From Patescibacteria group bacterium (lineage in GTDB: Bacteria; Patescibacteriota; UBA1384; UBA12157; JAENIV01), in the NCBI GenBank assembly GCA_023485405.1, contig JAMCZU010000002.1, forward strand, positions 1 through 51,245: a stretch of 51,245 nt of DNA, given 5' to 3'. This document shows, piece by piece, positions 663 through 23,386 of the stretch. Position 1 is the first letter of the stretch; every line of letters begins with the position of its first letter. The position numbers were made by a program, and so were the translations under genes. The notes below the pieces were generated by a model. The model worked only from the letters and a program-made list of their open reading frames with translations. It had not been told where the DNA came from and made no database searches.

Positions 663-700
663 TATCATCACCCTTCGCTAAAGCTTCGGAGTGACAAGTC

Positions 701-4045: not shown

Positions 4046-5500
4046 ATGTCTTTAACCAGAAAAGTTGCTCACAATACCATCGTTCAAATTGTTGGCAAGG
4101 TGATTACCACCTTGATTTCTTTATTTTTAGTTGCCGCCTTGACTCGTTATTTAGGGGTTTCGAGCTATGGTCAATATACAACTATTTTTGCCTATACCCA
4201 ATTTTTTGCAGTCTTGGCTGATTTTGGCTTTTTCTGGTTTTTAGTCAGAGAAATTGCCAAACCCGATGTTGATAGTGATAAAATTACCAATAATGTCTTA
4301 ACTTTTCGAAGTATTATCGCTCTTAGTATTTTTGCTTTATCGTTTTTAATCGCTCTTTTAATCCCTCAATATCATGATATCCGTTTAGGTATTGGGATTA
4401 TTGCCGCGGCCACTTTTTGGATGACTTTAAATGGGACTTATGTTGGTATTTTCCAAAACAAATTACGGATGGATAAAGCGGCCATCACTGATATTATCGG
4501 TCGCTTAGTTATTTTTGCTCTTATTCTTTACCAAATTAAAAGTAACGCTTCGCTTGATCTTATTTTATGGTCATATTTTTTGGGTAATATGGCTAATTTC
4601 TTTGCTAGTGCTTATCTAGGCCGAGCTTATCTTCATTTTAAGTTAGCTTTTGACTTTAATCTTTGGAAAAAGATTTTTTGGGAGTGTTTGCCAATTTCGG
4701 TGGTGACAATTCTGGCGATGATTTATTTTAAAGTTGATACAATTATGCTTTCACTTCTTCGTAGTTCGACTGATGTTGGTATCTATGGTCCGCCTTATAA
4801 AGTGGTTGAAATTTTGCTTTTGCTTCCTTCGATTTTTATGGGTAATGTTTTTCCAATTATTACTCGTTATATTTATGAGAAAAATGATCAAGTGCAAAAG
4901 ATTTTTCAAAAAGCCTTTGATTTTCTAATAGTTATCGCTGTCCCCATCGTAGTCGGAGTAATTTTTACCGCGCCTCGGATTATTGAAATTATTGCCGGCA
5001 GCGATTTTACAACCATTCACACTATTGGTCCGGTTTGGGGTATTCCGGCAACTTCTGGTTTTGCTTTACAAATACTGATTGTGGCGGTGGGTATTTCTTT
5101 TTTATCTCATCTTTTTGGCTACACGGTTATTTCTTTGGGCCAACAAAAGAAACTAGTCTGGCCTAATTTGGTTTTAGTCTTTTTTAATATTAGTTTAAAC
5201 CTGATTTTAATTCCTAAAATATCATATATTGGCGCGGCGATTACTACGGTGCTGACAGAAATGCTGGTTGTTTTACTTTATTTTGCGGTGATGCGGCGCT
5301 TCTTTGATCAGAAAATTCATCTTCAAATCTTGTGGAAGGTGATCTTTTCTGGTATAGTCTTAGGTTTAGTTTTAAAATTCCTAAGCTTTTTAGCGTTATG
5401 GTATTTAGTACCACTTGGTGGGCTAGTTTACTTTTTAAGTCTGTATTTAGTTAAAGGAATATCAAAAGAAACGATAACCGAGGTTATTAAAGTAAAATGA
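4046..5500 (+). CDS. flippase / polysaccharide biosynthesis protein (Wzx/MATE-like)
   Basis: Polytopic membrane protein, SLTRKVAHNTIVQIVGKV...LTRYLGVSSYGQY. Confidence 0.85.
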   Translation: MSLTRKVAHNTIVQIVGKVITTLISLFLVAALTRYLGVSSYGQYTTIFAYTQFFAVLADFGFFWFLVREIAKPDVDSDKITNNVLTFRSIIALSIFALSFLIALLIPQYHDIRLGIGIIAAATFWMTLNGTYVGIFQNKLRMDKAAITDIIGRLVIFALILYQIKSNASLDLILWSYFLGNMANFFASAYLGRAYLHFKLAFDFNLWKKIFWECLPISVVTILAMIYFKVDTIMLSLLRSSTDVGIYGPPYKVVEILLLLPSIFMGNVFPIITRYIYEKNDQVQKIFQKAFDFLIVIAVPIVVGVIFTAPRIIEIIAGSDFTTIHTIGPVWGIPATSGFALQILIVAVGISFLSHLFGYTVISLGQQKKLVWPNLVLVFFNISLNLILIPKISYIGAAITTVLTEMLVVLLYFAVMRRFFDQKIHLQILWKVIFSGIVLGLVLKFLSFLALWYLVPLGGLVYFLSLYLVKGISKETITEVIKVK

Positions 5501-5513
5501 ATGAGATAAAACA

Positions 5514-6593
5514 ATGAAGATAGCAATAGACGCACAAACGACACTTGGTCAAAAGACTGGTTTTGGTTTTTATGTTAAAAATTTAGTCGAAGCTTTGGCT
5601 AAGGTTGACCCTGAAAATCAATATATTTTAATTAAACCTAAAACAGAGACAGATTTTCCGACTTGGAAAAGATTTTGGTGGGACCAAGTGGCTTTTCCTT
5701 GGAAATCTCGTCGGGCAAAAGTTGATTTAATCCATCAACCCTGTTTTTCGGCTCCACTTTTTTATCCAGGCAAAGTGATTGCTACTTGTCACGATTTAAT
5801 TTCTGTCTTCTTTCCGGAAAATTTACCTTTGGCTTCTCGACTTTTTTATTCCCGCTGGATGCCATTTTCTTACCGAAAAGCCTTAATGCTCATTGCTGAC
5901 AGCGAACACACTAAAAGAGATATTATATCGCTTTTAAAAATCCCGTCATCACAAATTAGAGTAGTTCATTTAGCAGTTTCGCCTGATTTTAAACCAGTTG
6001 AAAGTAAATCAAAAATTACTAAAATTGGACAAAAATATCAAACCGGTCCAAAGTATTTATTACATGTGGGGACACTGGAACCGCGTAAAAATTTAGAATT
6101 TTTAGTGCGAACTTTTGCTTTGGCGGTGCGTGAAGGAATTTCCGAGAACTTGGTTATTACCGGTAAAAAAGGTTGGTATTATGATGGACTTTTTAAGTTG
6201 GTTAAAAAATTAAATCTTGAAAAAAAAGTCATTTTTACTGGTTATGTTGAGGAAAATGACTTGCCAGCCCTTTACTCTGGGGCAACGGTTTTTTTGTTTC
6301 CGTCTTTATATGAAGGTTTTGGCCTGCCGCCACTGGAGGCAATGGCCTGTGGTACGCCAGTTATTTCTTCAAACACCTCTTCTTTGCCAGAGGTAGTAGG
6401 CCGTGCTGGTCTTCTACTGCCACCGCGGGACGAAAGATTATGGGCCAGGAATATTTTAAAGGTCATTAAAGATAAAGGTTTAGCTGAAACTTTAAAGAAG
6501 TTGGGCCCAAGACAAGCGGCCAAATTTACTTGGGAAAATACCGCTCGTCAGACCATTGAAGTTTATAAAGAAGCGATGGGGAAAAAATTATGA
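5514..6593 (+). CDS. glycosyltransferase family 4 (GT-B)
   Basis: HVGTLEPRKNLEFLV, FPSLYEGFGLPPLEAMACGTPV. Confidence 0.92.
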   Translation: MKIAIDAQTTLGQKTGFGFYVKNLVEALAKVDPENQYILIKPKTETDFPTWKRFWWDQVAFPWKSRRAKVDLIHQPCFSAPLFYPGKVIATCHDLISVFFPENLPLASRLFYSRWMPFSYRKALMLIADSEHTKRDIISLLKIPSSQIRVVHLAVSPDFKPVESKSKITKIGQKYQTGPKYLLHVGTLEPRKNLEFLVRTFALAVREGISENLVITGKKGWYYDGLFKLVKKLNLEKKVIFTGYVEENDLPALYSGATVFLFPSLYEGFGLPPLEAMACGTPVISSNTSSLPEVVGRAGLLLPPRDERLWARNILKVIKDKGLAETLKKLGPRQAAKFTWENTARQTIEVYKEAMGKKL

Positions 6594-7729
6594 AAATTGC
6601 CATTGATGCTTCAAGGGCAATTAATGAAAAAGCGGGGATTGGCCGATATACTTTGGAGTTGACTCGTCAGTTACTTAAAAGTGATTCAAAAAATACTTAT
6701 CTTTTACTTTTTAGTTTTATGAGGAGCAGTAGTCGTAAAGAAAAAATCATTAAAGAATTTCGTACTTATAAAAATGTGGAAGTAAAAATTTTAAGAATTC
6801 CTGGAAATTTGAAAGAAAAAGTTTGGGGTTGGAAATTACCATGGTTTAAAAGTCTTTTAAAAGATGCGGACATTTTTTACGCTCCCAGTTTTTTAGAAGT
6901 GAATTTAGGTTTAAATTTGCCCCAAGTAGTCACCATTTATGATTTAACCACTTTTCTTTTTCCCGAGCATCTTGGTAAAAAGATGTCGGATTTTTTTAAT
7001 TTAAAAACCCAGCAGGCTTGTTCGAAAGCCTCTAAAATCATTGCGATCTCAAAGTCTACTAAAAATGATTTAGAAAAAATCTTAAAAATTAAGGAATCAA
7101 AAATTACGGTTATTTATCCAGGTCGAAATTTAATAGGTACCATGGCCAAAAATTTACCATCATTTTTAAAAGCAAAATCATATATTTTAGCGGTGGGTAC
7201 GATTGAACCAAGAAAAAATCTAATTAGTCTTTTTAAGGCTTATGCGATCTTACCGCCACGACTCCAAGAACAATACCCTTTAGTTGTTGTTGGTGCCAAG
7301 GGTTGGAATACGGGAAAAATTTTTGATATTTTAAATCATTTGAAATTAGAAAATAAAGTAAAATTTTTGGGTTTCGTGCCTGATGCGATGTTGGGGAAAC
7401 TCTATAAAGAAGCGGCTGTTTTTGTTTATCCTAGTTTGTATGAAGGTTTTGGCTTTCCGGTTTTAGAAGCTCTTTCTTTTGGTACACCAGTGGTGACATC
7501 CAGCATTTCTTCTTTGCCGGAAGTGGCAGGTAAGGCCGCTATTCTTATTGACCCGCAAGATCCAAAATCAATTTCGAGTGGTCTTCAGAAATTATTAGAA
7601 CACAAAGAAGAGATAGCACTCTTGAAGGGAAACGCTCGTATTCAGGCTAATAAATTTTCTTGGAGCACGGCCGCACGTGAGACTTTAGTAGTTTTTGACG
7701 AGGTAGTAAAAAAGGTTCATGAAGATTAA
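6590..7729 (+). CDS. glycosyltransferase family 4 (GT-B)
   Basis: AVGTIEPRKNL, YPSLYEGFGFPVLEALSFGTPV. Confidence 0.92.
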   Translation: MKIAIDASRAINEKAGIGRYTLELTRQLLKSDSKNTYLLLFSFMRSSSRKEKIIKEFRTYKNVEVKILRIPGNLKEKVWGWKLPWFKSLLKDADIFYAPSFLEVNLGLNLPQVVTIYDLTTFLFPEHLGKKMSDFFNLKTQQACSKASKIIAISKSTKNDLEKILKIKESKITVIYPGRNLIGTMAKNLPSFLKAKSYILAVGTIEPRKNLISLFKAYAILPPRLQEQYPLVVVGAKGWNTGKIFDILNHLKLENKVKFLGFVPDAMLGKLYKEAAVFVYPSLYEGFGFPVLEALSFGTPVVTSSISSLPEVAGKAAILIDPQDPKSISSGLQKLLEHKEEIALLKGNARIQANKFSWSTAARETLVVFDEVVKKVHED

Positions 7730-21875: not shown

Positions 21876-22283
21876 ATGGAAAAATTATTTCGTCGTCGCG
21901 GAGTGCGACAATTTATTAAATTTGGTATTGTTGGCGCCTCTTCGACGGTGATTGATTGGGGGATATTTTATTTTTTAAATTTAACTTTCGGCATTTATTA
22001 TTTAACAGCTAAAGTTTTATCTTTTTCGATTGCTGTTTTTAATTCTTTTATTTGGAACCGACGCTGGACATTTCGGTCAACTGATCCTAGTCACGGTAAA
22101 GAATTTACAAAATTTCTGATTATTGCCTTAGTTGGTCTATCTCTAAATGCTTTAATAATGTATTTAGCAGTTTCAATTTTCCATACCAGAAAAATTTTTG
22201 GTTTAGCTTTTGCGACAGGAATTGTGACTTTTTGGAATTTTCTGGCTAATAAATTTTATACGTTTAAACACTCACAAGCATGA
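21876..22283 (+). CDS. GtrA-family membrane protein
   Basis: RQFIKFGIVGASSTVIDWGIFYFLN, FNSFIWNRRWTF, FWNFLANKFYTF. Confidence 0.88.
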   Translation: MEKLFRRRGVRQFIKFGIVGASSTVIDWGIFYFLNLTFGIYYLTAKVLSFSIAVFNSFIWNRRWTFRSTDPSHGKEFTKFLIIALVGLSLNALIMYLAVSIFHTRKIFGLAFATGIVTFWNFLANKFYTFKHSQA

Positions 22284-23386
22284 AAATAGGTATTGACGCC
22301 CGGATGTATCGGTCAACAGTGGCTGGCATCGGGCGCTATTCGCAAAATTTAATCAAGAATCTTTTAGCTCTCGATAAAAATAACGAGTATATTTTATTTA
22401 TGACTTTGGCTGATAAAAAAGAGTTTGAAAATTATTTCATTGAAAATTCATTGAAAATTGAAAATTATAAATTGAAAATTGTCGTAGTTGATATTCCACA
22501 CTTTAGCCTGGCTGAGCAGACCAAATTGCCGAAAATTTTAGAAAAAGAAAATTTAGATTTAATGCATTTTTTAAATTTTAATTATCCGATGCGATACAAA
22601 GGTAAGTTTATTACGACGATTCATGATTTAACTTTACTTTTTTATCCCCAAGCCGCCAAGGATATGAATTTGATTAAACATTTGGGGTTTCGTCTGGTGA
22701 TGAAAAAAGCTTGTCAAAATGCGACCAAAATTATTGCAGTTTCTAAAACGACCAAAAAAGATATTATTAAAAAATTTAAAGTGCCAAACGAAAAAATCGC
22801 AGTCATTTACGAAGCCGCTGACGACCCCACTTCGCTCCGCCATGTGGCGGAGCTACGAGGGGCAAGCAAAAAAAATGCTGACAAGCCAATTATTCTCTAC
22901 GTTGGTCAATTTCGTCGCCATAAAAATTTAAAAGGCTTAATCGAAGCTTATCAAATTCTAAAACAAGAATTGCCTTGTAAGTTAGTGATTTTAGGAAAGA
23001 AAGAAAACTTGAATCTTGACATTTCTTCTTTAAAAGATGATATTGTAATGCCGGGCTTTGTGTCAGATGAAGATTTAAAAATGTGGTATAAAACGGCTTC
23101 GGTTTTTGTGATGCCAAGTTTTTACGAAGGTTTTGGTTTGCCGGGGCTGGAAGCGATGATGGCTGGGACGCCGGTGGTGGCCTCTCGAACGGGATCTTTG
23201 CCAGAAATTTATCAAGATGCTGCTTTATATTTTGACCCCTTTAATTCAAGAGATATTGCTGCTAAAATTAAAGAGGTTATTATAAATAAGAATTTACATG
23301 ATAAATTAATTCAAAATGGTTTGCGAATTTCGCGTGTTTACAGTTGGAAAAAGACAGCTGAAGAAACACTCAAGCTGTACAAATAG
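22280..23386 (+). CDS. glycosyltransferase family 4 with two repeat-derived segments
   Basis: IGIDARMYRSTVAGIGRYSQNL, PSFYEGFGLPGLEAMMAGTPVV. Confidence 0.9.
   Translation: MKIGIDARMYRSTVAGIGRYSQNLIKNLLALDKNNEYILFMTLADKKEFENYFIENSLKIENYKLKIVVVDIPHFSLAEQTKLPKILEKENLDLMHFLNFNYPMRYKGKFITTIHDLTLLFYPQAAKDMNLIKHLGFRLVMKKACQNATKIIAVSKTTKKDIIKKFKVPNEKIAVIYEAADDPTSLRHVAELRGASKKNADKPIILYVGQFRRHKNLKGLIEAYQILKQELPCKLVILGKKENLNLDISSLKDDIVMPGFVSDEDLKMWYKTASVFVMPSFYEGFGLPGLEAMMAGTPVVASRTGSLPEIYQDAALYFDPFNSRDIAAKIKEVIINKNLHDKLIQNGLRISRVYSWKKTAEETLKLYK

Follow-up and report, generated by a model that had tools for sequence, protein, structure and literature searches.

The palindromic element at 22825-22862 of the DNA analysed here is probably a member of a REP-like family of palindromic repeats that extends across the phylum; it would have landed in a GT4 glycosyltransferase gene, where it now encodes the flexible link between the enzyme's two domains. 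The whole stretch analysed (hereafter the window) is 51,245 nucleotides long and represents the entire contig C8 of an 832,514-base, 37-contig genome of a Patescibacteria group bacterium. In plain terms, a gene for sugar transfer contains a mirror-image repeat, about 43 letters long in all, that is translated as part of the protein. The features concerned are as follows.

666..700, plus strand: possible second copy with a short stem, CACCCTTCGCTAAAGCTTCGGAGTGACAAG, between genes; a weak match (26 bits; E 8.8e-4 in the window, 0.014 in the genome)
22280..23386, plus strand: host gene, a GT4 (GT-B fold) glycosyltransferase of 368 aa, in which the element codes for residues ~182-195
22825..22862, plus strand: palindromic element, consisting of a CCCC outer arm, CTTCG foot, 8-bp stem, ATGT loop, CTACG foot and GGGG outer arm
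22834-22841 / 22846-22853, plus strand: the two arms of the 8-bp stem, with the ATGT loop between them
22853..22856, minus strand: GTAG tag directly 5' of the hairpin on that strand, read from the sequence
22863..22867, plus strand: CAAGC tail, with which many family members end on the 3' side

The element, CCCCACTTCGCTCCGCCATGTGGCGGAGCTACGAGGGG, is located at 22825-22862 on the plus strand and is translated in frame within the 368-residue open reading frame 22280-23386. The first-pass annotation was right about its sequence and position, the 8-bp stem with CCCC/GGGG outer pairs and the translation, and also in calling it a GC-rich element in an AT-rich gene (71% GC vs 34% in the remainder of the GT4 gene). 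The inverted repeat 22825-22842 / 22845-22862 showed 83% complementarity, and the minus strand of 22825-22862 can be written as CGTAG-hairpin-CGAAG. The RNA fold of the element reached -27.2 kcal/mol, where shuffled sequences averaged -16 (z = -4.15), and none of 200 shuffles did as well. With up to three mismatches allowed, the stem pattern occurred once in the window vs 0.05 expected, and the only perfect GC-rich stem of at least 8 bp within these 51 kb was that of the element.

The first clue to a family was a near-identical element, with feet and tail shared, in pheS of another family of Patescibacteria/CPR. A covariance model (R1) was built from 11 aligned seed copies, the window copy among them; of the 380 Patescibacteria/CPR genomes searched with it, 110 gave one or more copies. 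A second model (R2) was built from 73 copies with the window copy excluded; it gave the window copy a score of 65 bits (E = 1.2e-12), feet and tail being included in the match, in a leave-out test that is only partly independent because the 73 copies had been collected with R1. The family consensus is CCCNNCTTCG-[variable stem-loop]-CTACGNNGGGCAAGC, and copies differ in their inner stem, which may be only a few pairs or long. The CTACG foot was present in all 11 seed copies and in 87 of 158 separate places, with CTTCG in 35 further places. Both inner and outer stem covaried, with 109 cells changed on both sides vs 25 in shuffles, although such pairing counts are favoured by alignments that were fitted to the structure. 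G-U pairs made up 21 of ~1,700 standard pairs (~1%), which favours palindromy at the DNA level. Most copies were intergenic, they occurred in both orientations relative to genes, and there were usually one or few per genome, with up to ~17 R2 matches per genome in relatives such as G015 and G010. Judged from these matches, the window hairpin is neither a chance product nor private to the GT4 gene, and the comparisons establish a family with fixed feet and a covarying stem.

Other collections were also searched. When 84,980 genomes were scanned for exact matches, a narrow pattern gave none and a wider one gave two, both in CPR (Candidatus Nealsonbacteria and Candidatus Berkelbacteria). The DNA surrounding the element is the same at the Berkelbacteria locus (L061) and at locus L010 of G045, a genome of the window's class, which points to Patescibacteria as the phylum of the window. 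Blastn against plasmid and phage collections returned no match, a result of little weight with a 56-base query. A copy was seen in frame within a 169-codon ORF at L231 5585-5612, on a contig classed as viral (IMGVR_UViG_3300002172_000059). Rfam 15 gave no match at the window element and no credible match at the copies in five other loci. No report of the family was found in the open-access literature, subscription papers and preprints being outside the scope of that search.

When in-gene status was made to require at least 250 open codons, 40 of them on each side, as a guard against chance ORFs, 21 of the 158 places were within long ORFs and 24 were at ORF ends. Ten host proteins were confirmed by Pfam, and the confirmed hosts of in-frame copies include PheS, DnaX, FtsK, GyrB, YchF, SecA, a glycosyltransferase, MutM and ComEC, which shows that conserved genes hold copies in frame. 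For example, in MutM of two species of one genus the element was present in both with the same feet and different stems, and the segment was absent from MutM of three more distant relatives (G112, G190 and G095). YchF carried a short-stem copy in G195 and none in G085, whose protein is 91% identical, so that empty mutM and ychF sites are on record in some relatives. Between two congeneric species the dnaX stems (CCGCTGAATAGCGG vs CCACTGCATAGTGG) differed by paired changes, both of which, as read from the sequence, are synonymous codon changes. The PheS linker was of equal length with and without the element. Unrelated palindromes were also observed in frame at such places, namely CCCTCACCC...CCCCATATGGGG... 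in ychF of G064 (L221), at the loop where G195 has the element, and CTGCCTGCCGGCAGGCAG in pheS of G132 (L075), at the element's PheS loop. Sister species have either this element or no palindrome at these loops, so landing sites seem to be common to several palindrome families.

In the window, Pfam placed PF13439 at residues 15-181 and PF00534 at residues 191-347 of the host protein, and the element-coded stretch lies between the two domains, as had been proposed. The proposed alignment with homologues bore out that the element-coded residues are unique to the window GT4, being absent from its homologues, but not that the protein was lengthened. Counted from the printed sequences, the linker has 21 residues in the window GT4 vs 23, 23 and 24 in its three nearest homologues (G001, G002 and G003), which contradicts the idea of an added linker-like segment and resembles the situation in PheS. 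Because linker length is conserved, a simple insertion is ruled out, or was later offset by a deletion. The AlphaFold2 model of the window GT4 had a mean pLDDT of 89.7, and its sole stretch below 50 was residues 187-199; the element-coded segment is predicted to be disordered. At the same place the nearest homologue (64% identical) has a confident ten-residue helix, with blocks at pLDDT 86-88. Based on these models, the element seems to have displaced an ancestral linker helix, with the predicted fold left intact and no net length added.

No second full-length copy was found in the genome of the window by the searches on which the own-genome counts rest, including that with R2. Besides the window copy, R2 matched its reverse strand and, weakly (26 bits), 666-700. 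Other stem-like matches in this genome (up to three mismatches) were rejected as copies by eye, their feet being missing. Without a second full-length copy, recent movement in this genome is unsupported. The first-pass annotation had expected a further copy in the source genome and would have been given up if no other existed; this holds for full-length copies, but the test is too narrow because the family is phylum-wide.

Signs of duplication were found in other genomes. Close pairs of copies were inverted in 15 of 23 cases, with the CAAGC ends inward; the window copy is single, with no dimer partner. In G064 a 116-bp inverted-dimer unit occurred twice at L152 (~2310-2425 and ~2858-2973), the two being identical, inverted to each other and both within one 450-codon glycosyltransferase ORF, the frame of which was kept open. 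The identity of the 116-bp dimers shows that copying in G064 was recent. Four identical short copies were present within 9 kb at L266 of G005 (944-977, 4703-4736, 6322-6355 and 7236-7269), with ~60 bp in common, flanks included, which is a sign of recent spread. Identical duplicates in some genomes are accordingly a matter of record. At two loci (L272 and L273), where paired elements, inverted or direct, enclose possible cargo, no obvious transposase was seen among the ORFs between them.

Known palindromic repeats offer several points of comparison. The first-pass annotation had suggested an analogue of Rickettsia palindromic elements (RPEs), and the likeness stands as far as a dispersed palindromic family tolerated in frame is concerned: palindromic copies were found in frame in many unrelated protein genes, essential ones included, as in RPEs. 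However, RPEs as described belong to another phylum and have a different, shorter consensus. The structure is closer to that of GTAG-tagged REPs, BIMEs and REPINs (PMC3733652, PMC8266576, PMC3116915), with a palindrome of 20-50 nt and an unpaired GTAG at one foot. GTAG directly before the hairpin is the hallmark of REP repeats recognised by TnpA-REP (PMC8266576), and intragenic REPs are known, many of them in replication and repair genes (PMC3733652). Like GTAG REPs, the family has an imperfect stem, covarying subfamilies and inverted dimers (the last in the family, not in the window copy), and it is mainly intergenic, with some copies in frame in genes including those for replication and repair. 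In contrast, GTAG REPs reach hundreds of copies per genome, and the family here has one or few (in the window's own genome, one full-length copy and one weak short match); moreover, its stem varies widely in length and sequence while the CTTCG/CTACG feet and outer stem are kept. Patescibacteria are not named in the searched part of the REP survey text. The ends of IS200/IS605 elements, which TnpA recognises, form imperfect hairpins in single strands, preceded on the 5' side by a guide tetranucleotide (PMC8266576). They share with the element an imperfect hairpin and a tetranucleotide in that position, but the element was not beside the IS200-type Y1 genes examined. By analogy, the closer structural relative of the element is the GTAG-tagged REP class rather than the RPE.

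Given these likenesses, the element could be a strict GTAG REP, spread by a Y1-family RAYT (TnpA-REP) of the same genome. The GTAG by an imperfect hairpin, the inverted dimers and the intragenic copies are all REP traits (PMC3733652, PMC8266576), about nine Y1 genes are present in the window's own genome, and Y1 genes were found in 69 of 110 element-bearing genomes vs 108 of 270 others (odds ratio 2.5). However, this association may reflect genome size or kinship, and no element-flanked RAYT gene (REPtron) was found in the 38 Y1 loci examined, which are part of those in the phylum, and where the one match (20 bits) was away from the gene; RAYT genes can also be lost. PF01797 had no match in the copy-rich genomes G371, G064, G181, G125 and G015. 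Moreover, the Y1 genes of the window's own genome are flanked by other, private palindromes. Seven of them, with 226-242 codons (L045-L051, on contigs C37, C7, C25, C29, C31 and C16), were inspected, and in six a palindrome private to the gene was seen on both sides, its two copies identical or nearly so and differing between genes, an arrangement resembling the TIR- or REP-flanked transposases of PMC3733652. The best-scoring Y1 match of the genome (L044, C13:13707-14052) is broken by in-frame stops and is probably a dead Y1 copy. With no flanking copy in the 38 loci, private palindromes in the window's own genome and several copy-rich genomes giving no Y1 match, Y1 transposases are not supported as the source of the element, and spread by a RAYT of the same genome is considered unlikely.

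A structured RNA motif, under selection in mRNAs as, for instance, a hairpin for protein binding or processing and translated only incidentally, would account for the strong conserved hairpin, the fixed internal-loop sequences, the covariation and the intergenic majority. We regard it as quite improbable, since the G-U share is low for a selected RNA, the copies lie in both orientations relative to genes, no Rfam family matched, and copies within one genome can be identical, spacers included. A palindrome arising by chance in an ordinary linker that evolves fast would fit the one full-length copy in the genome and a linker as long as in homologues, but the score given by a model trained without the window copy, with feet and tail included, the near-identical element in pheS of another family and the absence of the residues from protein homologues leave it hardly any credit.

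The phylum-wide REP-like family would have spread as DNA, most likely by way of single-stranded hairpins; their feet (GTAG plus hairpin) would be recognised, and an HUH-type or similar enzyme acting in trans would process them. Such a single-strand DNA mechanism is the best guess because the GTAG-hairpin layout is that of REPs and intragenic REPs are known. Copies that keep the frame in surface loops or linkers would survive, being nearly neutral, and the window copy would have displaced the ancestral linker helix rather than added length. There was no indication of a function of the element-coded peptide itself, and none is needed for this explanation; proteins appear to tolerate in-frame copies in their loops and linkers. 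It is conceivable, and put forward here only tentatively, that no RAYT is involved in copying the family, whose members would time and again remodel loops and linkers of essential proteins without breaking the frame. Stems would change and feet would not, which would leave sister species with different hairpins at orthologous insertions.

The phylum-wide family is of more interest than the single copy in the window. Patescibacteria have very small genomes, from which one would expect repeats to be purged. If a family persists in the genes for DNA gyrase, SecA, DNA polymerase III and phenylalanyl-tRNA synthetase, it would supply new protein segments, and such in-gene repeats would amount to a natural test of how far proteins tolerate inserts. 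They are also a warning for annotation, as poorly conserved stretches of CPR proteins may be translated repeats.
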